Source of the DNA: Actinopolyspora mzabensis
GTDB taxonomy: Bacteria; Actinomycetota; Actinomycetes; Mycobacteriales; Pseudonocardiaceae
Length of the DNA stretch: 64,000 nucleotides
Reading direction: 5' to 3'
NCBI RefSeq assembly: GCF_900101095.1
Contig: NZ_FNFM01000012.1
Coordinates: 1 to 64,000 of the forward strand
Each line of letters opens with the position of its first letter. Position 1 is the first letter of the stretch. Positions 40,861 through 63,472 of this stretch are shown one piece after another. The position numbers and the translations under genes were made by a program. The notes under the pieces are model-generated. The model saw only the letters and a program-made list of their open reading frames with translations. It made no database searches and had not been told where the DNA came from.

Positions 40861-43800
40861 TCACTCCTCTTCGTGGAACGTGCGGGGTTTCGGCAGGAAA
40901 CCTGTCGATTGCAGGTAGCTCAGGTACCGCCGCATCAACGTGTGGTCCACGTGCGGGCGTTCGAACTGCTCGCCAAGCAGGGTGGCGGTGTTGGTGTCGT
41001 CCACTCCCGGATCGCGCAGACCTCGCTCGTGCTGGCGTATTCGGGTGGCGAACAACGAGGCCGTGGGGCCGAGATCGCTGTCGATGTCGCCGGCGGCTCG
41101 GTGTTGACATGCCCGCATCCACGCCTCAACCGAGTCCGACCGCACCGCGTAGCCCATCTCGGTGAGCACGTCGGTGAGCTCCCGTAGTGCGAACGGCCTC
41201 GATCCACGGAAGTGAAAGTTTTTTCCGGATGCTCGGGGCTCGCGGGCCAATCGGGCGATGACAGTCGCGACGTGGTCGACCGGCAGCAGGTCTGCGACGA
41301 GATCGACCTCGGGAACTGTGCCCACTTCGACGCAGGCGCGAAACACGCGAGCGGTGATGTCGTCGGTGTTCCACTGCCCGGTTCGGCTGTGGCCCGCCAC
41401 TCGCCCGGGGCGGTACACCGAAACGGGGATACCGCGTTGCCGCGCGATGTCGACGACTCCCTCGGCGACCCATTTGCTCTGGTTGTAGCCGTTCTCCGGT
41501 GGTGGCTGCTGCGGTAGTTCGTGCTCTCGATACGGCTCCTCCCGATCGTGCTGCATGGGCAGAACCGAGAACGTGGACACGTGGTGCAGTGGCACGCAGC
41601 GGGTCTGCGCGGCCAGGCGCAGGACCTCACGGGTACCGCCCACGTTGCTGTCGGCCAGCGATCGGTACGGGCGCAGGAAGTTGACATCCGCTCCGACGTG
41701 GTAGATCTCGTCGACCTCCGCGGCGAGAGTGTCGAAGGTGGTCGGACTCAACCCCAGCAAGGGTTGGGAGAGGGTGCCGGCCACGGCGTGGATGCGGGGC
41801 TCGGACTGCTCGTCGCGCAGGCCGAACTCCGCCAGTCGGGCGAGCAGGCGGGTTCGGGCGTGCTCGTCGCTGTCGGCTCGGACCAGGCAGTAGGCAGTCG
41901 CGTCCGTTTCCCGTAGCACCCGGTCCAGCAGGAATGCTCCCAGGAATCCGGTGGCTCCGGTGAGGAACACCCGCCCGGGATCGTCGGTTCGTTGAGGCTG
42001 GCTCGCCGGCGCGATGGCAGGGTCCAGTGTGACGTCGTCACGTGGATCGACGGTGTTCTCGTCGTCCACGGGTTCGCTGCCGTCCGCTTCGACCAGCCGT
42101 GCCAGTCCGGCGACCGTGGGATGTTGGAACACCAACCGCACCGGAAGCTCCACACCCCATGTTTCGGCCGTCTTGGACCGCACGCGGGTCGCCGACAACG
42201 AATGACCGCCGAGCTCGAAGAAGTCGTCGTGCACACCGACGTCGTCACGTTCGAGCACGGTTTCGAAGATGCGGGTCAGTTCTTGTTCGAGCGGGCCGCG
42301 GGGGGCGACGTACCCCTCCCCCGTCCGGGCACGATCCGGCTGGGGCAACGCGGCCCGGTCGATCTTGCCGTTGGGTGTCAGCGGCATCGTGCGCAACACC
42401 ACGAACCGGTTTGGAACCATGTACTCCGGCAGCGTGGTGCGCAGGTGTTCGCGCAGTCGACCGGTGAACTCATCCTCAGCGGTCTCGTGACCCCGCTCGC
42501 TGGCCACGTAGCCGATCAGACGTTGCTGTCCGGAGGCGTCGGCGTCGACGGAGACCACTGCCTCGACGAGGTCGGGATGCGCACGCAGCGCGGTTTCGAT
42601 CTCGCCGAGCTCTACGCGGAAGCCGCGAATTTTGATCTGGTTGTCGCCACGTCCCAGATATTCGAGAGCACCGTTGTTGCGGAATCGCACCAGATCACCG
42701 GTACGGTAAGCTCGTTGCCCGCTCCCGGAGGGGTCGGATGTGAATCGCTCGGCTGTGAGCTCGGGACGGTTCAGGTATCCCTCGGCGGTGCCCGCACCCG
42801 CGATGACGAGTTCTCCCGGCACCCCGATCGGCGTCGTGTTGCCGTGCTCGTCGAGTACGTGCAACCGCGTGTTCGCGATGGGCCCGCCCAGCGGTATCCG
42901 GTTCTCGGACCCGTCGACCCGGTGTGCGGTGGACCAGACGGTCGTTTCGGTGGGACCGTACAGGTTCCACAGCACAACACCTCTCCCGAGAAGTTCACGC
43001 GCGAGTTCGACGGGCAACGCTTCCCCGCCGCACAGGGCGGTGAACGCTCGCTCCGGCTGCCAACCGGTATCGGTCAGCAGTCGCCAGGTGGCTGGAGTGG
43101 CCTGCATGAGGGTGGCCCCCGATAGGGACAACGCTTGAACCAGCGCGGGACCGTCCGCGCTGTCCTCCGCGGCTACCAGCGCGACCCGAGCGCCGACCAG
43201 CAACGGCAGGTACAGCTCCAACGCGGCGATGTCGAATGACGGAGTGGTGACCGCGGCGAGCACGTCCGCTCCGCTCATCCCCGGGCTGGAGGACATGGCG
43301 GTGAGGAAGTTGCTCAGTGCCGCGTGTGAGACGCGCACACCTTTGGGGCGCCCGGTCGAGCCGGAGGTGTAGATGATGTAGGCGAGCTGCTGTGCCCGGG
43401 GCGCCGGTTCGGGATCGTGGTCGCGCTCGCCGGTGTCCTCGTCGACGCACAGGAGCCGAGGGGATGGTGCGGGCAGCTCGTCGCGCAGCCCGGTAGTGGT
43501 CACCACGACGGGCGCTGCCGAATCTGTGAGCATGTGCGATACGCGGTCGGCGGGCAGTGCCGGGTCGATCGGCACGTAGGGGTTTCCCGCCTTGAGCACA
43601 CCGAGCAGTGCGACGAGCAGGTTCGGGGTCCGATCGACGCACACGCCGATCGGCTCGAAGGGTTCGGTGGTAGCGCGCAGTCGGTGTGCGATCCGGTTGG
43701 CTCGTGCGTTCAGTTGCCGGTAAGTCAACTTTGCCGACCCGTCCGGCCGGGACACCGCCACCGCCTCGGGCTGCCTGCGTACTCGCTCCTCGAACAGTTC

Positions 43801-45228
43801 GGTCACACGTCGTTCGGGGATGGCCGTCTCCGGGCCCGCACCCCAGGCGCGCAGGGTGTCGCGTTCGGTCGGCGTGAGCAGCGGCAGCTCACCGATTCGC
43901 TGCTTCGGGTCGGTGGCCGCGGAGTTGAGCAGGGTGTGCAGGTGGGCCAACATGCGTTCGGCCGTGGCTTCGTCGAACAGGTCGGTGTTGTATTCGAGCT
44001 CGGCTCGAAGCCCGTCTTCGACCGGAGTGATGCTGAGGAACAGGTCGAACTTTGCCACCTGCGGGTCGAGGTCCAGTGGTTCGGCGCTCAGACCGCCGAA
44101 GCTCAGCTCGGTGGTCGGCACGTTGCCGAGCATGAACATGACCTGGAACAACGGTGAGCGGGACAGATCCCTGGCGGGTTGCAGCTCGTCGACGAGCTGC
44201 TCGAACGGCACGTCCGGGTTCGCGTAGGCCTGCAGACAGGTTTCACGTACCCGCGTCAGCAGCTCGGAGAACCGGGGATCGTCACTGAGATCCGCGCGCA
44301 GGATCAGATTGTTGACGAAGAAACCGATGAGGTTCTCGAGCTCGGGGCGGTCGCGTCCGGCGTAGGGCGATCCGACGGCTACGTCGGATTGCCCGCTGTA
44401 GCGCGACAACAGCGCGCTGAACCCGGCGAACAGGGTCATGAAGCGACTCGCACCGTGCTCGTCGCCGAGCTCGTCGAGCCGGTCCGTCAACTCGGTGGGT
44501 AGAGTCAACGAGGTGGTCGCGCCCCGGAAGGTTTGCACCGGCGGCCTGGGGTGATCGGTCGGCAGGTTCAGCACCGGCAGCTCGGCGAGCTGACCTCGCC
44601 AGTATGCGAGCTGATCGAGCACGGCGTCGCTGTGCTGCTGCTCCCCTTGCCAGGCCGCGTAGTCACCGTACTGCACGGGCAGCTCGGGAAGCCGCGGCGA
44701 GTCGCCGTCGAGCAGCGCGGCGTAGCAGTGGGCGAGCTCGCGGAAGAAGATCGTGCCCGACCACATGTCGGAGATCGCGTGATGGAAGGTGACCAGCAGG
44801 ACGCGGTCGTCCTCGCCGACCCGGACGAGTGTCACGCGCGCCAACGGCGACCGGGACAGTTCGAACGGTCGTCCCAGGATCGTTCTGATCGTGGGGGCCA
44901 ACCGCTCCTCGTCGAGATCGAGCGTCTCAACCGGCAGCGTCAGTTCCGGCCGCACGGCTTGCACCGGTTCACCGTCGAGTTCGACCAGCGCGGTACGCAG
45001 TGTTTCGTGGCGCGCCACAACGGTGTCCACCGCGCGTTGCAGGGTGGGCTCGTCGAGTCCGCCGCGCAGCCGAACCGCTCCGTGCCCGTTGTAGGCCGGC
45101 CCGCTGGCGGGATCGAGTTCGTGCAGAAACCACAGACGTCGCTGACCGAACGAACACGGCAGTACGTAACAACCGTCGAGCTGGTCGCGGTCGTCGCGAG
45201 ATGGGCTGTCGGCACCTGTGCGAGTCAC
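40861..45228 (-). CDS. NRPS module C-A(Gly)-T with terminal thioester reductase
   Basis: A 1455-residue termination module. The condensation domain (residues ~20-440) has HHAISDMWS at 149-157. The adenylation domain (~465-960) has YTSGSTGRPKG and LYGPTETT, and its specificity residues read D-I-L-Q-L-G-L-V-W-K, one change from the glycine code DILQLGLIWK. The carrier is DDFFELGGHSL (~1000-1070). The C-terminal ~330 residues are a reductase with GATGFLGAFLL for NADPH and the YNQSKWVAE Tyr-Lys pair. It therefore adds glycine and releases the chain as an aldehyde or alcohol. GTG 45228 overlaps the upstream stop. Confidence 0.95.
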   Translation of the reverse strand: MTRTGADSPSRDDRDQLDGCYVLPCSFGQRRLWFLHELDPASGPAYNGHGAVRLRGGLDEPTLQRAVDTVVARHETLRTALVELDGEPVQAVRPELTLPVETLDLDEERLAPTIRTILGRPFELSRSPLARVTLVRVGEDDRVLLVTFHHAISDMWSGTIFFRELAHCYAALLDGDSPRLPELPVQYGDYAAWQGEQQHSDAVLDQLAYWRGQLAELPVLNLPTDHPRPPVQTFRGATTSLTLPTELTDRLDELGDEHGASRFMTLFAGFSALLSRYSGQSDVAVGSPYAGRDRPELENLIGFFVNNLILRADLSDDPRFSELLTRVRETCLQAYANPDVPFEQLVDELQPARDLSRSPLFQVMFMLGNVPTTELSFGGLSAEPLDLDPQVAKFDLFLSITPVEDGLRAELEYNTDLFDEATAERMLAHLHTLLNSAATDPKQRIGELPLLTPTERDTLRAWGAGPETAIPERRVTELFEERVRRQPEAVAVSRPDGSAKLTYRQLNARANRIAHRLRATTEPFEPIGVCVDRTPNLLVALLGVLKAGNPYVPIDPALPADRVSHMLTDSAAPVVVTTTGLRDELPAPSPRLLCVDEDTGERDHDPEPAPRAQQLAYIIYTSGSTGRPKGVRVSHAALSNFLTAMSSSPGMSGADVLAAVTTPSFDIAALELYLPLLVGARVALVAAEDSADGPALVQALSLSGATLMQATPATWRLLTDTGWQPERAFTALCGGEALPVELARELLGRGVVLWNLYGPTETTVWSTAHRVDGSENRIPLGGPIANTRLHVLDEHGNTTPIGVPGELVIAGAGTAEGYLNRPELTAERFTSDPSGSGQRAYRTGDLVRFRNNGALEYLGRGDNQIKIRGFRVELGEIETALRAHPDLVEAVVSVDADASGQQRLIGYVASERGHETAEDEFTGRLREHLRTTLPEYMVPNRFVVLRTMPLTPNGKIDRAALPQPDRARTGEGYVAPRGPLEQELTRIFETVLERDDVGVHDDFFELGGHSLSATRVRSKTAETWGVELPVRLVFQHPTVAGLARLVEADGSEPVDDENTVDPRDDVTLDPAIAPASQPQRTDDPGRVFLTGATGFLGAFLLDRVLRETDATAYCLVRADSDEHARTRLLARLAEFGLRDEQSEPRIHAVAGTLSQPLLGLSPTTFDTLAAEVDEIYHVGADVNFLRPYRSLADSNVGGTREVLRLAAQTRCVPLHHVSTFSVLPMQHDREEPYREHELPQQPPPENGYNQSKWVAEGVVDIARQRGIPVSVYRPGRVAGHSRTGQWNTDDITARVFRACVEVGTVPEVDLVADLLPVDHVATVIARLAREPRASGKNFHFRGSRPFALRELTDVLTEMGYAVRSDSVEAWMRACQHRAAGDIDSDLGPTASLFATRIRQHERGLRDPGVDDTNTATLLGEQFERPHVDHTLMRRYLSYLQSTGFLPKPRTFHEEE

Positions 45229-48200
45229 TTGCTCGCCTCCTGAGCCCCTGTCCGGTGGGCCACACGAGGCCGTGCCGCTATCGGCCCGGGCGCGGAACCC
45301 GATCGCTGCTCGGATCCCTCGTAGTTCACCACGAGCGCCAGTTCGGCCACGGTGCGGTGGTCGAACAGGTCGCGCACGGTCAGCTCCTTTCCGAATGTGA
45401 GGCGCAGCCTGCTGACCACGCGCGTGCCCAGCAGCGAATGCCCGCCGAGTTCGAAGAAGTCGTCGTGGGCGCCGACCTGTTGCAGTTCCAGCAGTTCCGA
45501 CCAGATCCGCGCGATCTCGCGCTCGGTCTCGTCGCGTGGGGCGACGTATTCGTCCAGCGCATCCCGGCTTGTTCCGGGCGCGGGCAACGCCGCGCGGTCG
45601 ACTTTGCCGTTGAGGGTCAGCGGGAGCTCGTTCACCGGTATCACGTGCGGCGGAACCATGTAGTCCGGCACGCGGCTGTGCAGGTATTCCCGCAGCTGTC
45701 GCTGCATACCTTCGTGGTGTGCCGGATCGGCCACGACGTAGGCGGCCAGCCGGGCATCACCAGCGGTCCGGGAGCGGTCGAGCACGATCGCGTCCCGCAC
45801 GTGTTCGTGTTCGCGGAGGACCGATTCGATCTCGGCGGGCTCGACGCGGAAGCCGCGGATCTTGATTTGGAAATCGGCGCGGCCGAGCACTTCCATATCG
45901 CCGTTGTCCAGGTACCGGGCCATGTCACCGGAGCGGTACATGCGCTCGCCCGGTTCGAACGGGTTGGGCAGGAAACGTTGCCGTGTCTGTTCGGGGAGGT
46001 TGTGATACCCACGTGCCACCCCGGGCCCCGCGACGTGGAGTTCGCCCGCTACACCGATCGGCACGGGGCGCTGGTGGTGGTCGAGCAGATAGGTTCGCAG
46101 GTCCGGCAGCGGGCGACCGATGTTGCTGCGGACGGTGGATTCCAGTTCCTCGGCGGTGACGCGGTGGAAGGTGGTGTGCACGGTCGTTTCGGTGATGCCG
46201 TACATGTTGATCAGGTGCGGCCGCTGGTCGCCGTGTCGATCCGTCCAGGGGCGCAGGGAACGCACGTCCAGGTACTCCCCCGCGAAGATCACGTAGCGCA
46301 GACTCGAAGTCTCTGTCGTGTCTCGTTCTGAGTCGATGTCGACGAACGAGCGGAACGCCGAGGGCGTTTGGCTGAAAACCGTCACGGCCCGGTCGCGGAC
46401 CAGTTCGTGCAACGCTTCCGGGGAACGGCTGGTATCACGTGGGACGACCACCAGCCTTGCTCCGTTGAGCAGCGCGCCCCACATCTCGAACACGGACACG
46501 TCGAAGGCGTAGGAGTGGAACAGCGTCCATACGTCGTCGTCGCGGAAATCGAATCGCTGTCCCGCAGCGGAGACGAGTCGGACGACGTTGGCATGGGTGA
46601 CCGAAACGCCCTTGGGATTGCCGGTCGAACCCGAGGTGTAGATGATGTAGGCCAGCTCGTCGGAGGTGATCTCCGGAGCGGGGGCCGAGGTTTCCTGCGT
46701 GGCGATCGTCCCGGCGTCGGAGTCGAGCGAGACGACCAGGCCGTGGAATTCGGGAGTGCGATCCGCGGTCTGCCGGTGATTGATCAGGATCGTCGGATCG
46801 GCGTCGCGCAGGATCCGGCTCATGCGCTCCTCGGGCTGGTTCGGCTCCAGCGGTACGTAGCAGGCGCCGGTTTTGAGCACGCCGAGGATTCCGACGAGCG
46901 TGTGCGCCGAGCGTTCCACGCACAGCGCTACGCGATGTCCGGGGGCGGCTCCCCTGTCAACGAGGTGGCGGGCCAGTTGGTTGGCTCGCTGTTCGAGTTC
47001 GCCGTAGGTCAGGGTGTCGTCGCCGTCGACGACGGCCACCGCCTCCGGGGCGTCCCGGGATCGTGCGGTGAACAACTCGTGCAGGCAGGGTTCGGCCTGC
47101 TGCGTGACGGTGCGATTCCACTCGTGCAGCAGCAGCTCGCGTTCGTCCCCGGGCATCATCTCGACGTCGCGAACGGCGATGTCGGGGTTTTCCGCGATGT
47201 TGCGCAGCAACGTGCCGAAGTGGCGGAGAATCCGCGCCGCCGCCTCGTGATCGAAGCGGCGGCGGTCGTAGATCAGTCGCGGTGGCAGGTCCTCCTGGGG
47301 GAAGACCACCATGGTCAGTGGGTAGTGGGGACGTCCGTCGTAGCCGAAATCGAGCATCTCGGTGCCGTGCAACGCCATCTCGGGTGCGGGCGCGTTCTCG
47401 AAAGCCAGGTCGGTTTCGAACAGCGGGGTTCCCGAGGGAACGCCTGCCCATTGGTTGAACAGGTGCAGCGGCACTCCGTCGTGCTCGCGGGCTTCGGCCA
47501 TCGCCGATTGCAGCTTGTCGAACCAGGTGACGAGATGTTCGTCCGGTTCGACCCGAGCACGTACCGGGATGGTGGTCAGCATCGGGCCGACTATGGTCTG
47601 TGCCCCGGCCAGATCGGAGGGTCGGTGTGTGGAGGTGGCGCCGGATATGACGTCGTCACGGCCGTAGTAGCGGGACAGCAGCAGCAACCACGCACCTTGC
47701 ACGATGGTGTTGACGGTCAGCCGGTGCTGTTGGGCCACCGATTGCAGGTCGCGCACCACCCCACCCAGTGAGGAGTCCGGTACATAGCCGTGGGTGGATT
47801 CGTCGTCGGAGCCGGGTTCGGGTGGTGGACCGATTTCCAGGGCCGCGGGGGGCTCGAAACCGGCAAGCGCGTCTCGCCAGTACTTCTCCGCCGGAGTGTA
47901 GTCCTGCTGCTTCCACCAACCGACGTAGTCGCGGTACGGGCGTGCCTGGGGCAGCGTGATTTGGCTTCCCTGCGCGTAGGCGGCGTAGAGCGTGGCGAAT
48001 TCCTGCAGGGCGAGTCCGAAGGACCAGCCGTCCATGACGATGTGCGGAAAGCTCCAGAAGAACCGGTACAGCTCCTCGTCGAGCCGGACGAGCTCGATGC
48101 GCATCAGCGGTGGAGATTGCAGGTCGAACCCCTCGCGCCGTTGCTGTCGCACGAGTCGTAGGTGCCGTTCGTCCTGCTGCCGGGGGTCGCAGTCGCGCCA

Positions 48201-48473
48201 GTCCCGTTCGGGAATGTGCAGGGTCACATCGGGATGTACGGCTTGCAGGGATTTGCCGACTTCTGCCCAGTGGAAGCCGGTGCGGAAGATGGGATGTCGG
48301 TCGACGAGGCTTTGCCAGGCGCGACGGAACGCGGACACGTCGAGCCGCCCACGCAACGTGAAATACAGTTGCTCGACGTAGACCCCCGAGTTCGGGTCAA
48401 GCAGGCTGTGGAAAAGCATGCCCTCCTGAATCGGTGCCAGTTCGTAGACGTCCTCTAACTGTCCGGGCTTCAT
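45225..48473 (-). CDS. NRPS module C-A-T
   Basis: A 1082-residue extension module. The condensation domain (~1-440) opens LAPIQEGMLFHSLLD, a pattern common in DCL-type domains that follow epimerases. Its core motif is PHIVMDGWS, so the first histidine of HHxxxDG is Pro 143 but the catalytic second histidine (144) and Asp 148 remain. The adenylation domain (~460-960) has YTSGSTGNPKG and MYGITETTVH, with code D-V-F-S-I-A-M-V-H-K. That is not one I can assign; the MVHK end resembles threonine codes. The carrier is DDFFELGGHSLLGTRV. It is coupled by ATGA to the hybrid gene upstream and by GTGA to the terminal module. Confidence 0.94.
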   Translation of the reverse strand: MKPGQLEDVYELAPIQEGMLFHSLLDPNSGVYVEQLYFTLRGRLDVSAFRRAWQSLVDRHPIFRTGFHWAEVGKSLQAVHPDVTLHIPERDWRDCDPRQQDERHLRLVRQQRREGFDLQSPPLMRIELVRLDEELYRFFWSFPHIVMDGWSFGLALQEFATLYAAYAQGSQITLPQARPYRDYVGWWKQQDYTPAEKYWRDALAGFEPPAALEIGPPPEPGSDDESTHGYVPDSSLGGVVRDLQSVAQQHRLTVNTIVQGAWLLLLSRYYGRDDVISGATSTHRPSDLAGAQTIVGPMLTTIPVRARVEPDEHLVTWFDKLQSAMAEAREHDGVPLHLFNQWAGVPSGTPLFETDLAFENAPAPEMALHGTEMLDFGYDGRPHYPLTMVVFPQEDLPPRLIYDRRRFDHEAAARILRHFGTLLRNIAENPDIAVRDVEMMPGDERELLLHEWNRTVTQQAEPCLHELFTARSRDAPEAVAVVDGDDTLTYGELEQRANQLARHLVDRGAAPGHRVALCVERSAHTLVGILGVLKTGACYVPLEPNQPEERMSRILRDADPTILINHRQTADRTPEFHGLVVSLDSDAGTIATQETSAPAPEITSDELAYIIYTSGSTGNPKGVSVTHANVVRLVSAAGQRFDFRDDDVWTLFHSYAFDVSVFEMWGALLNGARLVVVPRDTSRSPEALHELVRDRAVTVFSQTPSAFRSFVDIDSERDTTETSSLRYVIFAGEYLDVRSLRPWTDRHGDQRPHLINMYGITETTVHTTFHRVTAEELESTVRSNIGRPLPDLRTYLLDHHQRPVPIGVAGELHVAGPGVARGYHNLPEQTRQRFLPNPFEPGERMYRSGDMARYLDNGDMEVLGRADFQIKIRGFRVEPAEIESVLREHEHVRDAIVLDRSRTAGDARLAAYVVADPAHHEGMQRQLREYLHSRVPDYMVPPHVIPVNELPLTLNGKVDRAALPAPGTSRDALDEYVAPRDETEREIARIWSELLELQQVGAHDDFFELGGHSLLGTRVVSRLRLTFGKELTVRDLFDHRTVAELALVVNYEGSEQRSGSAPGPIAARPRVAHRTGAQEASK

Positions 48474-54400: not shown

Positions 54401-56050
54401 GTACAGCTGCAGTCCCATGTTCGGGTACTGGGTGCCCTGACCGGGGAACAGCAGTACGACACGGGGCTCGGCGGTGGGGGTCTGGGTCGTGACACGACCG
54501 GGGTCGGCGTGGCGCAACGCGTCGGCGGCATCGGCCCTGTCACGCGCCACGAGGATGCGCCGGTGTTCGAAGTCGGCACGTCCCGTCTGCAGGGTGTGCG
54601 CGACGTCGGCGAGCTCGTGTCGGTCGCCTTGTTCCAGCGCCTCGGCCAGTGCCGTGGAGTACTCGTCGAGAGCTTGTCCGGTTCGCGCCGACAGGGTGAC
54701 GACCTGCACGTCTCGCTGCGGCTGAGGGGAGGCGCTCTCGGTGGGTGCTTCCTCGAGGACGAGGTGGGCGTTGGTACCGCCGATACCGAAGGAGCTGACG
54801 CCGATGCGACGCGGGCCCACATCGCTAGTCCACTTCCGCGAAGCGGTGTTGACGTGCAGCGGTGTCGCGTCGAAGTCGATTTCGGGGTTGGCCTCGGTGA
54901 AGTTGATGCTGGGTGCGAGTTCGCAGTGGCGTAGCTGCAGAATCGCCTTGATCAGGCCGGTGACACCGGCGGTGCTGTCCAGGTGGCCGATGTTTCCCTT
55001 GACCGAGCCGAGTGCGCAGTCCGCCGGGGCACTGCCCGCGGTTCGGAACACCTCGTCGAGCGCGCGCACCTCGATGGGGTCTCCGAGCAGCGTGCCGGTG
55101 CCGTGTGCCTCGATCGCGGTGATCGTGGCGGGGTCGATCTCGGCCACGCCGAGCGCGGCGGCGACGACTTGGGCCTGCCCCTGCACGCTGGGCGCGGTGT
55201 AGCCGATCTTCGCCGCACCATCGTTGTTGACCGCCGAGCCTTTGATGACGGCCTCGATGTGGTCGCCGTCGGCGAGAGCGTCATCGAGTCGTTTGAGGAC
55301 GACGGTGCCCACACCATTACCGGCGACGGTTCCGCTGGCACGGGAGTCGAACGGGCGGCAGTGGCCATCCGCGGCGAAGATCATGCCCTCGCGGTGGAAG
55401 TAGCCGGCGTGCTGTGGGCAGCGGAGCGTGACACCGCCTGCCAGTGCCATGTCGCATTCGAAGCCAAGCAGCGCCTGGGCAGCCGTGTGCACCGCGGTCA
55501 ACGACGAGGAGCAGGCGGTCTGCACGCACACCGCCGGACCGTCCACATCGAGCTTGTAGGCCGTGCGGCTGGCTACGTAGTCCTTGTCGTTGGCGATGAC
55601 CAGTTCCAACGAGTCGCCGCCCGGTGGAAGGCCGCGACCGGCGGTCAGGTTGGCCATCAGGTATGTCGACAGGTTGGCGGCGGCGTACACACCGATCGAA
55701 CCGTCGAATCCGGCGGCGGTGTGTCCGGCGTCTTCCAACGCTGCCCACGCGTTTTCCAGGAACAGGCGTTGCTGGGGGTCGAGGATGGCCGCTTCTCGCG
55801 CGTTGTAGCCGAAGAACGGGGCATCGAACCGGTCGAAGTCCTCGAGGACCGAAGCGGCCCTGATGTAGTTCGGCGCGTCGAGGTGCTCCTGCGGCACACC
55901 GTGCGCCAGCAGCTGCTCGTCCTCGAAGAACGTGATCGATTCGACACCGTCGCGCAGATTGCGCCAGAACTGGTTCAGATCGCGCGCTCCGGGGAACCGC
56001 CCGGCCATCCCGATGACTGCGATGTCGTTGCTGAGGTCGGTGGATGTCAT
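48470..56050 (-). CDS. Hybrid PKS-NRPS: KS-AT-T-Cy-A(Cys)-T-degenerate E
   Basis: A 2526-residue enzyme. Ketosynthase (~10-435): Cys 180 in TACSSS, His 316 and His 356. Acyltransferase (~530-870): Ser 631 in GHSVG and HAFH (727-730), which predicts malonyl-CoA. No ketoreductase is present, so the beta-ketone should persist. Carrier Ser 964. Heterocyclisation domain (~1025-1450): DLLIADIGS (1159-1167). Adenylation (~1490-1985): code D-L-W-N-L-S-L-V-W-K, cysteine-like. Carrier Ser 2035. The last ~430 residues resemble an epimerase, but its HH reads His 2215-Glu 2216 and the VEGHGR segment is VEYDLR. ATG 56050 has an AGGAGG site inside the upstream gene's end region. It adds malonate, then a cysteine-derived thiazoline. 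Confidence 0.95.
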   Translation of the reverse strand: MTSTDLSNDIAVIGMAGRFPGARDLNQFWRNLRDGVESITFFEDEQLLAHGVPQEHLDAPNYIRAASVLEDFDRFDAPFFGYNAREAAILDPQQRLFLENAWAALEDAGHTAAGFDGSIGVYAAANLSTYLMANLTAGRGLPPGGDSLELVIANDKDYVASRTAYKLDVDGPAVCVQTACSSSLTAVHTAAQALLGFECDMALAGGVTLRCPQHAGYFHREGMIFAADGHCRPFDSRASGTVAGNGVGTVVLKRLDDALADGDHIEAVIKGSAVNNDGAAKIGYTAPSVQGQAQVVAAALGVAEIDPATITAIEAHGTGTLLGDPIEVRALDEVFRTAGSAPADCALGSVKGNIGHLDSTAGVTGLIKAILQLRHCELAPSINFTEANPEIDFDATPLHVNTASRKWTSDVGPRRIGVSSFGIGGTNAHLVLEEAPTESASPQPQRDVQVVTLSARTGQALDEYSTALAEALEQGDRHELADVAHTLQTGRADFEHRRILVARDRADAADALRHADPGRVTTQTPTAEPRVVLLFPGQGTQYPNMGLQLYRTESVFRSCVDRCAELLTAELGFDLRDVLFPLERGATDTDEVAARLESTEIAQPALFTIEYALAELLQSWGVRADAMVGHSVGEITAACRAGVLGLNDALRLVAARGALMGNLPTGSMLSVGLPERQLRSRLPEGLALAAVNADELCVISGEHEDVAEFKRLMESEEVPTRELRTSHAFHSAMMEPILEPFAAELAELRFHPPQLPYTSNSTGQWVTADQATDPNYWVRHVRETVRFGDGIARASESGPTVMLEVGPGNTLGTLARACGLGSGHTIVPSLPGPGENPAEQEFLLHSLGRLWLAGYQLDWTALHPERRRRVALPTYPFEKRRYWIEPAHGTGPAGDPAADIEVADDTDNNDGLVLDTVDPRPAVSTDYEAPRDEREQHIARIWQDMLGVGPIGAHDPFVELGGHSLLAARVLARINTELGAEITPRALFETPTVAGLAATIAESSVTTGTHEVGLPAATVDPDNLYEPFPLTEIQQAQWIGRMGSFNVGDVAAHAYWEVDLDGIDLDKLEGAFNELLDRHTMLRAVIQSDGNQRILPDVGPYRFEKLDLRQQTDEQCESALDELRERLSHEVRDSSTWPLFDIRVSLLPQGGARLHLGFDLLIADIGSLRILMRDWRKIYQHGPDELAPLSLSFRDYALAASRIRETPLYQRSLTYWRERVRDLPAGPDLPLATAPASLTRTEFTARRAVVDRARWDAFVAHAARHGATASAALLAVYAHVLATWARDPRFTLNVTLTNRLEVHDEVSELVGEFASFDLLPVDLAGGPGIGAVARGLQEQAWQDLEYRYLNGVEILREMARRDGGTSGAAMPVVFTSTLVQQTEPGDESMFGWLGEMTHEIAQTPQVWMDAGVLEVAEGMQLSWHGVKQLFPAGVLDDMFEQFRDLVLALSEDESMFDRDPGALLPAHQRELIDTVNDTAGPVPRGLLFTPLVEQATRHPERVAVIEPDRELTFGELYRHACRIGRRLRELGVGPNQLVAVAADKSCEQLVAALGVLLAGGAYLPVDPDLPVERQDHLLEHGQTRIVLTRADGPDREWPEGVRGISVDLAVETPDEDAPEPVQQPDDLAYVIYTSGSTGNPKGVMLSHRAALNTLVDINERYAVGSDDRVLGLSSLSFDLSVWDVFGVLGAGGAVVLPEKEAGRSPDRWLRLVIEHRVTLWNSVPALMQMFADHLAGLKDPPHLPLRLALLSGDWIPIDLPDRLRAVGEGIEVISLGGATEAAVWSIHYPIGQVDRTWDSIPYGRPLRNQTVHVLDERLEECPVWTTGELYIGGTGVAEGYWRDPGRTAESFLTHPRSDRRLYRTGDLGRRLPDGDIEFLGREDFQVKIGGFRIELGEIESALLRCPGVHTAIAAAVGTDRHHRRLAAYLVPEAPAEQRDETTDQELSDLALRTVTDTLPNYMVPAAITVLDRLPLTANGKIDRNALPDPAAEDNEQEAETTTGPLAERLSSIIAESLGLDHVGANQNFFEIGGDSIKGIQIISLANAQGLEITPADLFQQPTIAALAAVLSERGVTAVDTDRARALTAHQHRIFERCPNEIPKGVHRLELDLDRGLTAQHGQQALTDLVQDHEALRQRFTRDDSGWSSTIVDTDPQACHLPPIDLAALPEQRREPAMRQMVAEMVDELDIVEGPLVKAALFDLGADSKRLVLLVHELAVDTVSWGTLTNELFPALRHDDHDDASDPSSSTDVSPRWPRPHLRQVEVTSASPHALDFDPSMSLSAADEPVQHIDGGLDEERTATLLDNAWKAYRMSPEEVCLAALVRAVGAETGGGPFVADVEYDLRDPDRARPEVGPYSGTAAVVVDLDDVTDVDSVLNRSKHGYRGGAGPAARCDETPETSILLRGVLRMSAQYADPDAEPPIPVCDSSLAVHPLILTPCLMANRLQLRLTTRIDEDTACRVSRALRQALVDIAEHCASPHAGGVSAADFPLADLDDAELAAFLTTFATDTNTDPASPTGGEEDE

Positions 56051-56063
56051 GCGTGAAGGCCTC

Positions 56064-59000
56064 CTACGCCCGGCCTTGCCGGCTGCCGCGCCTGCGACGC
56101 GTGGATCTGCGATTGGCACGTTCGAAACCGGTGCTCGCCGATGCGCCGGCCGCGCCCGAAGAGTCGTCGTGTTCGGCGAGATGTTGAGCCAGCCTGCGAA
56201 TGTTGGGGTGCTCGAACATGGTCATCAGCGGGTAGTCCCGGCCGAGCTCTTCGCGCAGGTGCCGGTGGGCTCGGACCACGATCACGGAGTCGGCCCCGAG
56301 ATCGAAGAAGTTGTCCAACACCCCGATCCGGTCGGTGTCGAGCACGCGCTGCAGGACACTTGTGATGGTTCGCTCCAGCTCGTTGGCGGGTGGTGTGTGC
56401 TCGGCTCGCGCGGTGTCCCCGTCCCCGGCGTGGTCGTCGGCGAGCCGGCGCAGCGCCGTTCGATCGAGTTTGCCGCGCGGGGTGAGCGGTAGACGATCCA
56501 ACAGCGACACCGTCGCCGGCACCATGTAACGCGGGAGGCGCTCACCGAGATAGCTGCGCAGTTGCTCGGCCGTGTCGGTGTTCCGCTCGTTACCGGCAGC
56601 GTCGGTGGAATCCGATACTCCGGTTGCCTGTACGCGCGCGCCTCCGATGAGGCCGTGCAGCACGGTGTGGCCGTCGTCGAGGTCGAACGCCTGCCTGAGC
56701 TCGTGCGTTTCTCGAATCAGGCCGACCTGGCACAGCCCGATGTCGCAGTCGGCCGCGGCCTCTTCGAGAAGCTGCGAGATCAGTCCCGCTTCGATCAGGC
56801 AGAAGTCCCGACTGCGGCTGCCGTAGAGCGGTTCGATGGCGCGGTTTTGTGCCACCAGCACCACGGTGAACGCCGACTTCCGGAACAACGCTCGGTTGTC
56901 CGGCACGTGAATGTCGGGGTTCAATCGGGTGTCGGACACCGTGACGAGCCGGTGCGCGACCGGATCGTGGTAGTAGGTGCCACCGCCCAGGCCCTCGACC
57001 CCGCCCGGTGCTGTGTAGACGTAGGTTTGCACCGGGTACAACGATCCGGCCGAACCATAGCGGTACTTCGGAAGTGGCCCTTCGCCCAGTCCTCTGAGCC
57101 TTTCCAGCAGTCGGGCGAGGTCTTCCAGCGGAACCGCGCGATCGCCGAATTCGCGATGGCTGGACCTGGTCGCCGTTTCACCGTCCGCGGCTCCGTAGAA
57201 ATCGGTGAGTTCGGTGACCGATCCGTCCAGGTCGGTACGGCGTCCGGGCAGGGCCAGCTTGTGCTCCAGGCGTGCGGCGGGATCGGTGATTTCCGCCCCC
57301 AACACGTCTTCACCATCGTCGCCGGTGACCTCGTCGCGCTCGTCTTCCGGCACCACGAACGCCACCAGTCGCCGGTGCTCGTTGCCCGCGGCGGTGACGG
57401 CGGCCGCCCGCACGGCTTCGTGGCGTACCAAGGTGGACTCGATCTCGCCTGGTTCGATTCGGAAACCACCGACTTTGAGTTGATCGTCGCTTCTGCCGAG
57501 GATCTCCAGCTCACCGGTGTCGAGCCAGCGCCCCGTATCGCCCGAGCGATAGAGTCGTTCTCCGGTGCGGGGATGGGTGATGAACGCGGATCGGGTGCGT
57601 TCCGGATCTCGCCAGTATCCCTCAGCCAGTCCGATTCCCCCGATGTACATCTCACCGGGACACCACAGCGGACACTCTTCGAGGCGGTCGTCGAGCACGT
57701 GGATCGTGTGGTTGCGCATCGGCCGCCCGTACGGGATCGAGTCCAGCTGCGGGTCGATCTCACCCAGCTGGTTGACCACACACCAGATCGCGGTTTCGGT
57801 AGGTCCGCCCGAAGCGATGATTCGCGCCTTCGGTGCGATCTCGCGCACCCGATCGGGCAAATCGATCGGTATCCAGTCCCCGGAAAACCACACAGCACGC
57901 AATTCGTCGGTGCCTGGATGCTGCCGCGTGTCGGCGAGGTGCTCGACGAGCATGCCCATCAACGCGGGTACGGAGTTCCACACGGTTACTCCGTGCTGGG
58001 CCATCAGCTCCAGCCAGCGAGCCGGATCCCGTTGGGCTTCCGGCTCCGGCAGCACCAGAGCCGCGCCCGCCCCCAGGGCGCCGAAAACGTCCCACACCGA
58101 CAGATCGAAGCTCAGCTCCGACAACCCGAGAACCCGATCGTCGGGTCCGACTCGCATTCGTTCGTTCGCGTCGACGAGGGTGTTCAACGTCGCCCGATGG
58201 GTTTGCATCACGCCTTTCGGCTCACCGGTCGAGCCGGAGGTGTAGAGAACGTAGGCCAGATCGGTCGGTTGCTGGGCCGGCTGCGGCGCGGGTTGTTGCT
58301 CGACCGGCTCGTCGAGATCCACAACGAACCTGGTGACGCCCTCCGGCCAATCGCGGTCCGGCCCCTGCGCCCGAGTCAGTACCAGTGACACTTCGCCGTG
58401 AGACAGCAGGTGATCCTGCCGTGCGGTCGGCAGATCCGGATCCAGTGGCAGGTACGCCGCGCCCGCGAGCTGCACGGCCAGCGCCGCGACGATCTGTTCG
58501 GCGCTTTTGTCAGTGGCAACAGCGACCAATCGGTTGGGCACGGCGCCCGCCTCCCGCAACAACCAGGCCAGGCGGCAGGCGTGTCCGTGGAGTTCCGCGA
58601 ACGTCAACTTCCGCATCGAGGTGATCACCGCGGGACGCTGCGGATGCGTGGCTGCCTGCTCGACGATCCCGGAGAACAAATACCCGGCGGGCGCCGGCCC
58701 GGCGGTGTCGTTGGCCGAGTCGATCAGTTCCCGGTGTGCTCGCGGCAACGGATCGAAACCGCCTGGTTCCCAGGTGTGTTCGTGGTCGGCGAGTTCGTGC
58801 AGCAGGCGCAGATAGGTCGCGAACATGTCGTCGAGAACACCCGGTGCGAACAGTCGCTCCACCGCGTCCCAGTTGAACGTCAGAGCACCGTCACGTTCGT
58901 AGACCTGGTGATCGAGCAGTACCTGCGGTGTCTGGGTAATGCCGTAGACCAGCTCACCCAGCCACTTCGACCCCCACTCCCCCTGCTCGAAGGCTTGGTC

Positions 59001-62000
59001 GCGCCCGTGCTCACGTGTGCTAGCGAAGACCACGGACGCGAACGCGCTGGGGGGAACGCCGCGTGCTCGGGCCGCCTCGCGCATCACCTCCACGCCGCTG
59101 AAGTAGCGGTGTTCCAGGTCGCGCCACATCTGGTGCTGCAGCCGCTGGGCCAGCACCCCGATGCCCTCGTCGCTGCGCAGATCCACCTCGAGCAGGCTCA
59201 CCGAGGTGAAATCGCCGAGGATGTTGTCGATGTGCGGGTGCAGCGGGAACCGGCTGAACAGCGGGACGTCGATGGTGAAGTGGCTGGAGCGGCTCCAGGC
59301 TCCCAACGCGGTGGCGTAGGCGGCCAACAGCACGGAGGTGGGGGTCACGCCGAGCTCGGCGGCGTGTTCCTTCAACCGCTGCCAGCGTTGCGCATCGAGC
59401 CGGTCGTGCCTGCGTTGACGGATCGGGCGATCGAGCTGCTCCGCTGAGTTCGCCGATGGCAGTTCCGGCGAGGGCGGCAGCGTCGCGATCCGATCCATCC
59501 AGTAATCGCGGGAGCGTTGGTACTCGTCGGTATCGGCGATGTGCTCCGCAGCGAGCACGAAGTCGCGGAACGACACGTCCACCGGCGGCAGCTGCGTGTT
59601 CGGATCTCGGTAGAGATCTCCCCACTCCAGGAAGAACAGCCGGACGCTGGCCACGTCGAATATGAGCAGGTCGAGGCTGACGTGCACCCGAGCGTGGTTG
59701 CCTTCCATCCAGGTCACCCGGATGTCGAACATGGGCCAGGTATCCAGCGGGATCACCTGGTGGCCCATCTCCTCCCGCATCGCGTCCAGGTGATGTTGCA
59801 CAGCCCGCTCGTCGGCGTCGCGCAGGTCGTATTCGGCGATCGGGACCGAGGGGACCTCGGCGAGGATACGTTGGTAACCGTCGGCGGAGACCACGGCACG
59901 CAGCATCTCCTGGCGCTGCACGAGCGTGTCCAACGCTCGTTGCAGCCGTGGAAGATCCAACTCAGGACTGTCGTGTTCGGCGTAAAGGTGGATCGAGGTG
60001 CCGCTGAGCTCGTAAGTCGCGGCTCTGCCCACCAGATAGGCGTGTTGCAGGCCGGTGAGCGGGAACGGTTCGAAGCGGTTGTCCGGATCGCTGGTCAGCG
60101 TGGGCCAGGATGCGGCCGAGGAACCGCCCCCGTCGAGGCCACGATCGATCAGCTCCCCGAGCTCGGTCACCGTCGAACGGAAGAACTCGGCCGTCGGAAG
60201 GGTGACACCGAAGTCACGCTGCAACGAGTGGCGCAACTCGATCGTGCGCAGCGACTCGATCCCCAGCCCGGCCAGCTGCTGATCGCCGGGCAGCTCCTCC
60301 GGGGAAGTGCCGCACGCGTGGGCGACTCGACGCCGCACTTCGGTGCTGATAACGGAGGAGCGCAGTTCCGGCGCGAGTCCGAGCACCATGTTGCGCATCT
60401 CGGAGTGCTCGGAATGCGTCTCGGTGGCCGTCCGGTCCACGTCTTCGGGTGCGGCGCTGCGTGCGACGGTGCGGAGTTCACCGCGTTGGTAGCTTTCGCG
60501 ACAGTTGCCACGTCGAACTTTCCCACTGTGCGTGGTGGGTATCTGGCCGGGTTCGACGAGTAAGATCTCATGCACGGCGACCTGGTGGTCGCTGGTCACC
60601 GCCTGCCGGAGACGTTCGGCCACGGCGGCGAGGTCGTGCCGCGCGCTGTCGGGAGTGCCGGGCACGGTTTGAACGACGACGAGTTGCTCTTGCTCGTCGA
60701 CCTCGGTCGCGAAGGCCGCTGCCGGCAGCGCCGGGTCGGGGCTTACACGCTGGGCCGATTGCTCGATGTCCTGCGGATGCATGTTTCGGCCGTTGACGAT
60801 GACCAGTTCCTTCAGCCGGCCGCAGATGACCAGTTCGCCTCCGCGCAGAAATCCGAGATCACCGGTGCGCAGAAATGGTCCTCGACCGTCGTCGAGCATC
60901 GCGCCGAAGGTGTTCTCGGTGGCCTCGGGTTTGCGCCAGTACTCTCGGCACACCACGGGGCCCTCGATCCACACCTCGCCGATCGCGTTGTCGGCGCGCT
61001 CGGCCCCGGTCTCGGGATCGACGATGTGCACATTCGCTCGCGGACCAGGGGCCCCGCAAGGCACGAAAGCCTGCGATCGCTGTTCACCGGTGGCCTCGGC
61101 AGCATGTCCTTGTTCCAAGCGGACCGCGTCGAGTTCCACCCCCTCCGGGGCTGTCCCCGGCCCGGCGGTGACGATCTGCATCGTCTCGGTCAACCCGTAG
61201 GCGGGAAACAACGCCCTCGTGCGAAAACCGCACGGGACGAACAAGTCGGCGAACCGGCGCAGCGTGTGCGGCCGGAGCCGTTCGCCACCGATCAGCGCGG
61301 CGTGCCAACCGCTCAGGTCGAGCTGTTCGCGCTGCTGTGGCGTGATCAGGTCCACACACCGCTGGTAAGCGAAATTGGGTCCACCACCGAAAATCGGTCC
61401 TTCGGTGGCGGTGATGGCTTCGAGCCACCGGTGCGGTTGTGCGACGAAGTCATCGGGATTCATGAACACGCCTTCGCCACCGACGAACTGGGCCAGCAAC
61501 ACGTGACCCAGGCCGAGCGCATGATGCAGTGGCATCCAGCTGACCACGTTTCCGCCGGCGGGCAACCCCGCGAGGTCGCGGAAGTTCACCAGTTGCGCGG
61601 CGAGATTGTCGGCGGTGACGGCCACGCCCTTGGGGTCACCGGTGGACCCGGAGGTGTACTGCAGCATCGCCAGATCCGTGCCGTGGAGGAGCGGCGGCTT
61701 CCACAGCGATGCCGCGTCCGGGGCGACGCGATCGACCTCGATTCGGGCGACATCATCCGAAAGCGGGTCCCCTCGCCCACGCGGATACGCGGGGTCGGTC
61801 ATCGTCGAGTGCATCAGCACGGCGCCGACATCGGCGTCTTCGGCGACGCGAGCGATCCGGCCGCTTTCGGAGGAGTCGGCATTGCTCGGCGGTGCGCAGG
61901 GAACAGCTGCCACACCGGCGTACAAGCACCCGAAAAAGGCGACCAGGAAATCCATTCCCCCAGGCAGCAGTAGCAGTGCCCGATCACCGCCGAGCCGACG

Positions 62001-62192
62001 ATCTTGGAGCTCCGACGCGATGGCACGAGCACGGGTGTCGAGCTCGATACTGGTCAGAGTCCGTCCCGGATACTCGCCCGAGGACAAAAACCGCAACGCC
62101 ACCGCGTGTGGATCGCGCTCGGCGCGCTCGCGGACGACGTCGAGCAGCGATTCGGACCGGCTGTGCGGGGCACGCTCGGCGAGGTCGGTCAT
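56064..62192 (-). CDS. Loading protein: FAAL-T-Cy-A(Ox insertion)-T
   Basis: A 2042-residue starter enzyme. Fatty-acyl-AMP ligase (~10-580): YTSGSTGDPKG, SWMPLHHALGLG, GGGPNFAYQRC. Carrier Ser 647 (GIESL). Heterocyclisation (~705-1150): DLLIFDVAS (841-849). Adenylation (~1170-1620): code D-L-W-N-W-S-S-I-W-K, closest to cysteine codes. An FMN nitroreductase-like (SagB-type) oxidase is inserted at ~1640-1855, before the A10 lysine (K1908). Carrier Ser 1969 (GADSV). The tail is arginine-rich. It should activate a carboxylic acid, condense it with cysteine and oxidise the thiazoline to thiazole. ATG 62192 has GGAG at 6 nt; ATG 62279 is an alternative. It is the first gene of the minus-strand operon. 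Confidence 0.93.
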   Translation of the reverse strand: MTDLAERAPHSRSESLLDVVRERAERDPHAVALRFLSSGEYPGRTLTSIELDTRARAIASELQDRRLGGDRALLLLPGGMDFLVAFFGCLYAGVAAVPCAPPSNADSSESGRIARVAEDADVGAVLMHSTMTDPAYPRGRGDPLSDDVARIEVDRVAPDAASLWKPPLLHGTDLAMLQYTSGSTGDPKGVAVTADNLAAQLVNFRDLAGLPAGGNVVSWMPLHHALGLGHVLLAQFVGGEGVFMNPDDFVAQPHRWLEAITATEGPIFGGGPNFAYQRCVDLITPQQREQLDLSGWHAALIGGERLRPHTLRRFADLFVPCGFRTRALFPAYGLTETMQIVTAGPGTAPEGVELDAVRLEQGHAAEATGEQRSQAFVPCGAPGPRANVHIVDPETGAERADNAIGEVWIEGPVVCREYWRKPEATENTFGAMLDDGRGPFLRTGDLGFLRGGELVICGRLKELVIVNGRNMHPQDIEQSAQRVSPDPALPAAAFATEVDEQEQLVVVQTVPGTPDSARHDLAAVAERLRQAVTSDHQVAVHEILLVEPGQIPTTHSGKVRRGNCRESYQRGELRTVARSAAPEDVDRTATETHSEHSEMRNMVLGLAPELRSSVISTEVRRRVAHACGTSPEELPGDQQLAGLGIESLRTIELRHSLQRDFGVTLPTAEFFRSTVTELGELIDRGLDGGGSSAASWPTLTSDPDNRFEPFPLTGLQHAYLVGRAATYELSGTSIHLYAEHDSPELDLPRLQRALDTLVQRQEMLRAVVSADGYQRILAEVPSVPIAEYDLRDADERAVQHHLDAMREEMGHQVIPLDTWPMFDIRVTWMEGNHARVHVSLDLLIFDVASVRLFFLEWGDLYRDPNTQLPPVDVSFRDFVLAAEHIADTDEYQRSRDYWMDRIATLPPSPELPSANSAEQLDRPIRQRRHDRLDAQRWQRLKEHAAELGVTPTSVLLAAYATALGAWSRSSHFTIDVPLFSRFPLHPHIDNILGDFTSVSLLEVDLRSDEGIGVLAQRLQHQMWRDLEHRYFSGVEVMREAARARGVPPSAFASVVFASTREHGRDQAFEQGEWGSKWLGELVYGITQTPQVLLDHQVYERDGALTFNWDAVERLFAPGVLDDMFATYLRLLHELADHEHTWEPGGFDPLPRAHRELIDSANDTAGPAPAGYLFSGIVEQAATHPQRPAVITSMRKLTFAELHGHACRLAWLLREAGAVPNRLVAVATDKSAEQIVAALAVQLAGAAYLPLDPDLPTARQDHLLSHGEVSLVLTRAQGPDRDWPEGVTRFVVDLDEPVEQQPAPQPAQQPTDLAYVLYTSGSTGEPKGVMQTHRATLNTLVDANERMRVGPDDRVLGLSELSFDLSVWDVFGALGAGAALVLPEPEAQRDPARWLELMAQHGVTVWNSVPALMGMLVEHLADTRQHPGTDELRAVWFSGDWIPIDLPDRVREIAPKARIIASGGPTETAIWCVVNQLGEIDPQLDSIPYGRPMRNHTIHVLDDRLEECPLWCPGEMYIGGIGLAEGYWRDPERTRSAFITHPRTGERLYRSGDTGRWLDTGELEILGRSDDQLKVGGFRIEPGEIESTLVRHEAVRAAAVTAAGNEHRRLVAFVVPEDERDEVTGDDGEDVLGAEITDPAARLEHKLALPGRRTDLDGSVTELTDFYGAADGETATRSSHREFGDRAVPLEDLARLLERLRGLGEGPLPKYRYGSAGSLYPVQTYVYTAPGGVEGLGGGTYYHDPVAHRLVTVSDTRLNPDIHVPDNRALFRKSAFTVVLVAQNRAIEPLYGSRSRDFCLIEAGLISQLLEEAAADCDIGLCQVGLIRETHELRQAFDLDDGHTVLHGLIGGARVQATGVSDSTDAAGNERNTDTAEQLRSYLGERLPRYMVPATVSLLDRLPLTPRGKLDRTALRRLADDHAGDGDTARAEHTPPANELERTITSVLQRVLDTDRIGVLDNFFDLGADSVIVVRAHRHLREELGRDYPLMTMFEHPNIRRLAQHLAEHDDSSGAAGASASTGFERANRRSTRRRRGSRQGRA

Positions 62193-62458: not shown

Positions 62459-63472
62459 ATGGTCGAGCAAACACCGCAGACGGAAGCGTCCGCGCAATGG
62501 ATCGTGGAGGACCTGTGGGCGGCTCGCGAAGCACAAGTCCTGATCGCAGGCACGGAACTGGACGTGTTCACCCACATCTTCCGAGGGGCACGGAGCGCCG
62601 AGGAGGTGGCGACGGCGATCGGCGCCCCCATACGCGGTGTAGAACGCCTGCTGGATGCGCTTGTCGGGATCGAGTACCTGGACAAGCAAGACGGTCACTA
62701 CACACTTTCGTCCTTGGCGGACAAGCTGCTGGTGCGCGACAAGGACACCTACGTCGGCGAGATGGTGCAGGAGATGAAGCTGTTGTGGAACAGCTGGTCC
62801 AACCTGACCGAGGTGATCCGCACCGGGGAGCCGGTGCAACCGTGGGACGACGAGGAGACCGGACGACGGTTGTTCCCCAGCCTGGTGCGGGCGCTGTTTC
62901 CGATGAGCTGGGGATCGGCTCGTGCCGCTGCCGCGGTCGCGCTGGAAGCCGACGATCGCGTCGAACGGATCCTCGACGTGGCCGCGGGATCGGGTGTGTG
63001 GTCAATCGCGTTCGCCCAGCAGGCACCGAGAGCGCGCGTGACCACGGTGGACTACTCCGAAGTGACCCCGCTGACCCGTGAATTCGCCGAACGTTACGGA
63101 GTTGTCGACAGGTTCGATCACATCGAGGGCAACCTGCGTGACATCGACTTCGGAGCGGAAAGCTACGACCTGGCGATACTGGGCTACATCCTGCAGACCG
63201 AAGGTGAGGACCGCAGCAGGGATCTGCTGGAGAAGTGCCACCGCGCGCTGCGTCCCGGTGGTCGGTTGTTGATCGCCGAGATGATCCCCGATGACGATCG
63301 AACGGGGCCCGCGGCGCCACTGGTGTACGCCATGGACATGGTGCTCTACACCGAGCACGGAGACGTTTTCACCATGACGCAATACCGGGACTGGCTGCAC
63401 ACCGCGGGTTTCCGGCGAGTCGAGACGATCGACATACCCGCCCCTTGGCCACTGGTCCTCGCCACCAAATAG
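62459..63472 (+). CDS. SAM-dependent O-methyltransferase-like protein
   Basis: A 337-residue methyltransferase of the plant/actinomycete O-methyltransferase type. The N-terminal winged-helix dimerisation domain (AREAQVLIAGTELDVFTHI, ATAIGAPIRGVERLLDALV) is followed by the SAM fold (ILDVAAGSGVWSIAFAQQ, VTTVDYSEVTPL) and a late LRPGGRLLIAEMIPDDD. ATG 62459 follows GAGAGGGA. The upstream in-frame extension is not family-like. It is divergent from the loading module and probably part of the same cluster. The methylation target is unknown. Confidence 0.88.
   Translation: MVEQTPQTEASAQWIVEDLWAAREAQVLIAGTELDVFTHIFRGARSAEEVATAIGAPIRGVERLLDALVGIEYLDKQDGHYTLSSLADKLLVRDKDTYVGEMVQEMKLLWNSWSNLTEVIRTGEPVQPWDDEETGRRLFPSLVRALFPMSWGSARAAAAVALEADDRVERILDVAAGSGVWSIAFAQQAPRARVTTVDYSEVTPLTREFAERYGVVDRFDHIEGNLRDIDFGAESYDLAILGYILQTEGEDRSRDLLEKCHRALRPGGRLLIAEMIPDDDRTGPAAPLVYAMDMVLYTEHGDVFTMTQYRDWLHTAGFRRVETIDIPAPWPLVLATK

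Follow-up and report, generated by a model that had tools for sequence, protein, structure and literature searches.

A probable six-module variant of the levesquamide-type pyridine-forming assembly line, with a probably chlorinated anthranilate-type starter, in Actinopolyspora mzabensis

Results and Discussion

A line related to that of levesquamide

The first 64,000 nucleotides of contig NZ_FNFM01000012.1 of Actinopolyspora mzabensis (the whole stretch analysed, hereafter the window) carry on the minus strand four synthetase open reading frames (ORFs), all open, which form a hybrid nonribosomal peptide synthetase-polyketide synthase (NRPS-PKS) line with the order FAAL-T-Cy-A-Ox-T / KS-AT-T-Cy-A-T-Ct / C-A-T / C-A-T-R (positions 62192-40861, Pfam and NCBIfam assignments). 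We consider it probable that this line belongs with the levesquamide-type pyridine-forming lines as a variant of six modules, with a probably chlorinated anthranilate-type starter. What follows documents the genes of the line, the order of its domains and its ancestry, and all its chemical steps are proposed by analogy with relatives. The predicted product would be a shorter, probably chlorinated relative of levesquamide, chloroanthraniloyl-oxazolyl-pyridine-isothiazolinone-Ser-glycinol, or the aldehyde.

Levesquamide, whose pathway is, of those described, the nearest to that of the window, is antitubercular and contains a rare pyridine-fused isothiazolinone (PMC9695545; PMC10892018) and, in the accessible part of its description, the LvqA-D line of Streptomyces sp. 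RKND-216 uses anthranilate, a Ser-derived oxazole, a malonyl unit, Cys for the pyridine/isothiazolinone, Ser, beta-Ala and a last Leu-reductase module (PMC9695545). The window has the starter, azole, malonyl, Cys-pyridine, Ser and beta-Ala-like modules and the reductase in the same order, but it is without the Leu module before the reductase and its last adenylation (A) code is Gly-like. Its halogenase, its flavin reductase-dioxygenase fusion and its second O-methyltransferase find no mention for levesquamide in that part of PMC9695545. An initial annotation, made from the DNA alone, had stated that this exact order belongs to no described pathway, which holds within the open-access literature searched, levesquamide having the same order plus one module; neither a chlorinated nor a six-module levesquamide was found in this literature, most subscription papers lying outside the search.

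A scan of a GTDB genome collection with the flavoprotein of the cluster gave 70 loci, of which 36 were compared with the window. Four related clusters, in Streptomycetaceae MP113-05, S. chumphonensis (G062, locus L002), Streptomyces JJ36 and WMMB 322, show the order FAAL-Cy-A-Ox, KS-AT-Cy-A-Ct, C-A-T, C-A-T-C-A-T-R, monooxygenase, flavoprotein and thioesterase, the C-A-T-C-A-T-R part being divided into two ORFs in MP113-05 and the starter gene being set apart from the rest in three of the four. Since the synthetases of the window recur in these four genomes with one module added and the gene order partly rearranged, the domain order of the window is far beyond chance. Synthetases 1 and 2 of the window are each 53-55% identical to their counterparts in the four clusters and synthetase 3 is 57-59% identical (54% to S. 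toyocaensis, a related line treated below), while, against five homologues from Streptomycetaceae, one of them from S. toyocaensis, the monooxygenase shows 49-53% identity and the flavoprotein 58-66%. The type II thioesterase (50-61% identity to homologues), the exporter (40-49% to the exporters of Streptomycetaceae clusters) and the downstream methyltransferase (65-68% in three of the levesquamide-type clusters, 49% in S. toyocaensis) also have relatives there. A close likeness is with S. chumphonensis, which has the same module 2 and module 5 codes, an adjoining halogenase, flavin reductase and dioxygenase, and synthetases 1-3 that are 55-59% identical; it differs by its extra Leu-type module, by reductase and dioxygenase being separate genes, and by the absence of a homologue of the downstream methyltransferase in the 52 kb fetched.

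In the pathway that we propose, a halogenase would chlorinate Trp, a dioxygenase would open the indole and a kynureninase encoded elsewhere in the genome would cut off the (chloro)anthranilate, the FAAL-like domain then loading this anthranilate-type, probably chlorinated, acid. Module 2 would add Ser and make an oxazole, and module 3 would add an unreduced malonyl unit; the Ct domain of module 4 would recruit a trans-acting flavoprotein, which would dehydrogenate the carrier-bound Cys, and the Cy domain of this module would make the C-C bond and close the pyridine with the thiol retained. Module 5 would add Ser, whose nitrogen would join the thiol to give the isothiazolinone, the last module would add Gly (or beta-Ala), the reductase would release an amino alcohol or an aldehyde, and the monooxygenase and methyltransferases would decorate the pyridine.

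The catalytic motifs are present in the domains checked, with the T serines, the KS Cys-His-His, GHSVG and HAFH in the AT, DxxxxDxxS in the Cy domains and YNQSK in the R domain. The domain order given by the initial annotation is real, most of its chemistry is wrong. It had rightly read a malonyl AT without reduction and a reductive release.

Probable pyridine formation in module 4

Synthetase 2 combines KS-AT-ACP-Cy-A(Cys)-PCP-Ct in a single protein, and the A code of module 4, D-L-W-N-L-S-L-V-W, agrees with the Cys that had been assigned to it. The terminal domain, which the initial annotation had written "E*", belongs to the Ct domains known from caerulomycin and karnamicin; it is without the catalytic His, HELAVDT standing in place of HHxxxDG (window only, aligned by eye). 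The gene of an acyl-CoA-dehydrogenase-like flavoprotein with a catalytic-type Glu lies two genes downstream of the synthetases. According to the accessible part of PMC8149447, the His-less Ct domain of caerulomycin recruits the acyl-CoA-dehydrogenase-like flavoprotein CaeB1, which dehydrogenates the carrier-bound Cys, the Cy domain then makes the C-C bond and the pyridine, and retention of the thiol is decided by the next C domain; the same protein types, following a FAAL-Cy-A-Ox protein, have been proposed for karnamicin (accessible part of PMC9838390). Because the window has the Ct domain and, nearby, the kind of flavoprotein that is its partner in caerulomycin, module 4 most likely makes, by analogy, a pyridine rather than a thiazoline. 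The caerulomycin/collismycin lines (CaeA2-CaeB1) share with the window this Ct-recruited trans flavoprotein and the pyridine-forming Cys module, but have a picolinate starter, no azole module, a Leu that is not kept and, in the same accessible part, no R domain described (PMC8149447). The C domain of module 5 groups with those of the four levesquamide-type lines (support 95/99), and we therefore infer that the thiol is kept.

A parallel with yersiniabactin, leading to an acyl-thiazole-malonyl-thiazoline peptide aldehyde, had been drawn by the initial annotation from features that do occur in the line, namely the Cy domain and Cys-like code of module 4, the Ox domain of module 2 and the R domain. 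A yersiniabactin-like line is defined by methyltransferase and ketoreductase domains in its PKS part, and neither was found in the line of the window; what this line does have, a Ct domain with a trans flavoprotein encoded nearby, characterises pyridine formation in the caerulomycin system as reconstituted. The thiazoline was rejected on this Ct domain and flavoprotein, and we regard the yersiniabactin-like reading as very improbable.

Composite nature of the last synthetase gene

The C domain of synthetase 4 groups with module 6 C domains (98/94) and its motif HHAISDMW fits their HHxxxDMW, whereas module 7 C domains have HHxxxDRW. For its A domain the nearest relatives in the tree are those of module 6 and of S. 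toyocaensis (100/99). The R domain has 47-49% identity to its counterparts in the four levesquamide-type clusters and falls at 99/97 with the reductase domains of module 7 and of S. toyocaensis. The trees showed no C or A domain of the module 7 type in the window, such as would mark a separate Leu module before the reductase. By these groupings, the last gene is a module-6-type C-A joined to a module-7-type reductase, and the Leu module is missing.

The comparison took in 22 sources, of which several were partial and two came from the same genome; in it, a single module separating module 5 from the R domain was seen only in the window itself. A line from another genus of the same family (G033) has one module fewer again, C-A-T-R being its sole synthetase after the Ct protein, so that lines with 5, 6 and 7 modules share the same kind of reductase. 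The difference may reflect a module loss in the lineage of the window, a gain in Streptomyces, or a duplication, the last being also allowed because module 6 and module 7 C domains group together (97/96). These five-, six- and seven-module lines represent a natural experiment in which a terminal module is lost or gained and the release domain is kept.

Predicted substrates of modules 2, 5 and 6

The A codes were extracted manually at the positions of the motifs, in GrsA numbering. In a tree of 49 rows, 31 of them Cy-A, the module 2 Cy-A of the window joins those of the four levesquamide-type lines in a single clade (100/100), apart from the Cys modules, and the five rows of this clade are the only ones of the 31 with the signature VW[FL]SGDW and ASGGPTETAIW; SLGGATEA is found instead in 23, and 3 were unreadable by pattern. 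An oxazole from Ser is favoured over a thiazole because of this clade placement and of the pocket signature common to levesquamide-type modules, contrary to the Cys-thiazole proposed initially. The module 2 code is identical to that of S. chumphonensis.

The module 5 code (Table 1) is likewise the same in S. chumphonensis, and the A domain groups with the four levesquamide-type lines and S. toyocaensis (100/100). The last A code, D-I-L-Q-L-G-L-V-W, confirms the glycine-like code noted initially, D-I-L-Q-L-G-L-x-W being presumably a Gly code, and the levesquamide member of its clade is assigned beta-Ala; Gly is tentatively favoured over beta-Ala for the last residue.

Starter unit and tryptophan genes

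Beyond the synthetases, the flavin reductase and tryptophan 2,3-dioxygenase halves of a fusion ORF each align near full length with solved proteins, and the dioxygenase half scores 193 bits, above the Pfam cut-off of 34.9. The genes beyond the window edge were read on the same contig (229522 bases), where a halogenase of the Trp-5/Trp-6 group follows, Trp-5 and Trp-6 enzymes scoring alike (687 and 677 bits). Because this fusion and this tryptophan halogenase stand beside the line, we suggest that the starter is most economically read as chloroanthranilate, and the acyl starter of the initial annotation gives way to an anthranilate-type acid, to which the two genes point. The chlorokynurenine of taromycin is reportedly a parallel. 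A tryptophan dioxygenase adjoins the line in 7 of the 22 sources, including the window and all four levesquamide-type clusters. The starter domain is 48-51% identical to those of these four clusters, and the starter ligase falls with that of S. chumphonensis at a support of 92/89, short of the level that the tool marks with a star.

The separate flavin reductase and dioxygenase genes of S. chumphonensis lie near the same kind of halogenase, as do those of S. toyocaensis (G063) and G033, the two being fused in the window. A second dioxygenase-like gene is found on another contig of the genome.

Several points weigh against the proposed pathway. The four clusters are called levesquamide-type by their module order only and not by comparison with the lvq sequence; the Ct motif pattern matched the window alone and none of 16 other Ct pieces, the motif not having been compared across relatives; at one position (W for G, 239) the module 2 code departs from that of three levesquamide-type clusters; and the last residue may be either Gly or beta-Ala, as the released form may be either alcohol or aldehyde. 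With regard to the starter, the dioxygenase half scores 234 bits, below the NCBIfam equivalog cut-off of 390.7, the kynureninase over the cut-off lies elsewhere in the genome, outside the cluster, and no formamidase over the cut-off was found in the genome. The starter ligase stands inside a 100/99 clade that also holds two Amycolatopsis lines without dioxygenase in the fetched flanks, and the identity of the starter consequently does not follow from the clade alone.

The dioxygenase score and the formamidase search also speak for a levesquamide-type line whose neighbouring halogenase and dioxygenase serve another product, with unmodified anthranilate or some other acid as starter; moreover, no halogenase was found in the fetched stretches of three of the four levesquamide-type clusters. 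Such a dissociation is unlikely in our view, as a halogenase with a flavin reductase stands beside such lines in 4 of the 22 sources (window included), the others coming from Streptomyces and another genus of the window's family, and the LuxR-type gene past the halogenase has 38-48% identical homologues in the same clusters.

A karnamicin-like line, with a fatty-acyl starter, a Cys-thiazole, the pyridine and a Leu added then removed, would account for the FAAL-type starter domain and for the domain order of the first three proteins. The accessible part of PMC9838390 gives for knm FAAL-ACP-Cy-A-Ox-PCP, KS-AT-ACP-Cy-A-PCP-Ct and C-A-PCP with a type II thioesterase and an acyl-CoA dehydrogenase, and a karnamicin-like cluster (G016) is 43-47% identical to the window over the first three synthetases. 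Karnamicin itself has, in the same part, a fatty starter, a thiazole, a Leu removed by an amidohydrolase and an asparagine synthase for the amide, and no reductase release is described (PMC9838390), whereas the cluster genes scanned in the window include neither an amidohydrolase nor an asparagine synthase, there is one monooxygenase instead of two, an extra C-A-T-R gene is present, the module 2 code is of the oxazole type and G016 falls outside the starter clade. Membership of the karnamicin group, entertained at one stage, was displaced by levesquamide once the reductase-ended Streptomycetaceae loci emerged, and we now judge it improbable.

The levesquamide-type pyridine-forming line was already known; new here are the six-module order and the probable chlorination. 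If true, a halogenated shorter relative would extend a very small compound class. The full interpretation, in which a chlorinated, shortened levesquamide (a chloroanthraniloyl-oxazolyl-pyridine-fused isothiazolinone-Ser-glycinol or -glycinal) would be made, the terminal module would be a case of natural loss or gain, and the fused reductase-dioxygenase would couple chlorination with ring opening, is in our estimate about evenly balanced between true and false.

Gene organization

The whole cluster would extend from about 35468 to about 3.8 kb beyond the window edge, limits set because the neighbours are common to related clusters, 62192-40861 covering the synthetases only (Table 1). The translational coupling announced initially is found at two of the three junctions, as 4-bp overlaps (ATGA, 48470-48473, between synthetases 2 and 3; GTGA, 45225-45228, between 3 and 4); the first junction is only closely spaced, with a 13-bp gap if synthetase 2 starts at ATG 56050, the most likely start because an earlier GTG would overlap gene 1. 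The Ox (nitroreductase) domain is embedded in the module 2 A domain, ahead of motif A10. The upstream O-methyltransferase is without close counterpart next to the related lines that were compared, the only identities being 24-27% (in G033, G016 and G146).

Table 1. Features of the cluster and its surroundings, with positions in the window unless stated otherwise.
Feature	Position	Strand	Basis
Synthetase 1, FAAL-like ligase-T-Cy-A(embedded Ox)-T, modules 1-2; predicted units: anthranilate-type starter and Ser-derived oxazole	56064..62192	-	Pfam; start ATG 62192; Cy-A tree
Synthetase 2, KS-AT-T-Cy-A-T-Ct, modules 3-4 (malonyl and Cys, predicted pyridine formation)	48470..56050	-	Pfam
Synthetase 3, C-A-T, module 5, predicted Ser	45225..48473	-	Pfam; A code D-V-F-S-I-A-M-V-H
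Synthetase 4, C-A-T-R, module 6-type C-A and module 7-type reductase	40861..45228	-	Pfam; trees
FAD-dependent monooxygenase, aromatic hydroxylase type	39635..40855	-	Pfam; start ATG 40855
Acyl-CoA-dehydrogenase-like trans flavoprotein, putative CaeB1/KnmD role	38433..39638	-	Pfam; Glu 370 in YEGTS
Type II thioesterase, putative CaeA4/KnmA4 role	37687..38436	-	Pfam; GHSLG motif
Methyltransferase (downstream)	37041..37658	-	Pfam
DHA2-family MFS exporter	35468..37003	-	NCBIfam
O-methyltransferase, upstream, divergent	62459..63472	+	Pfam
Flavin reductase-tryptophan 2,3-dioxygenase fusion gene	63525..64892 (window ends at 64000, inside the gene)	+	
Tryptophan halogenase	65187-66866 (contig coordinates, beyond the window)	-	
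LuxR-type regulator	67078-67791 (contig coordinates, beyond the window)	-	

Distribution and other observations

Within the family, Pseudonocardiaceae, 16 of 390 genomes have the flavoprotein at E 1e-90, counting that of the window; none of the genus's 9 other genomes does. In a sample of 394 genomes from the class it occurs in 2, again with the window's own, the other being apparently JJ36 again; a close R domain at E 1e-75 was found in the same two genomes of the class sample. Of the 15 further genomes in the family that encode the flavoprotein, 13 were examined, G072 and G126 being left out.

The halogenase-linked line of S. toyocaensis (L010 and L132:10102-17064) is divided between two contigs; it shares the end genes and the reductase. 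It was considered as a seven-module line and dropped, FAAL-Cy-A-Ct being there in one protein and the module 2 code being of the Cys type. No KS, AT or Ox match was found in its fetched stretches, and its pyridine flavoprotein and reductase are present despite the lack of a malonyl-module match, which leaves the ring formation unexplained. In Micromonospora endolithica (L003) and Amycolatopsis (G197 and G217), pyridine-forming lines have a C then an R domain with no A match between them, which suggests an A domain acting in trans.

Desulfoluna butyratoxydans (L018:10001-21111), presumably an anaerobic sulfate reducer, encodes the flavoprotein together with a KS-AT-Cy line and a FAAL-T-Cy-A-Ox-T protein that is 38% identical, a putative azole-pyridine pathway with an Ox domain in what is probably an anaerobe. 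Flavoproteins 46-58% identical to the pyridine-forming one occur in metagenome-assembled genomes of Acidobacteria, Pyrinomonadaceae, Myxococcota, Deltaproteobacteria and others (L005-L009, L011-L013, L015-L017, L034); the flanks fetched around them, in some cases short, gave no match to the synthetases of the window.

Sugar uptake and catabolism take up much of the window's left part, outside the cluster. Positions 10296-32516 carry an ABC sugar transporter, a PcRGLX-type protein, LacI regulators, an aldolase-dehydrogenase, an FGGY kinase and a LUD-domain protein, a set that would probably serve the utilisation of rhamnose or rhamnogalacturonan, and positions 3839-5695 encode an NB-ARC/AAA ATPase-type protein, possibly regulatory.

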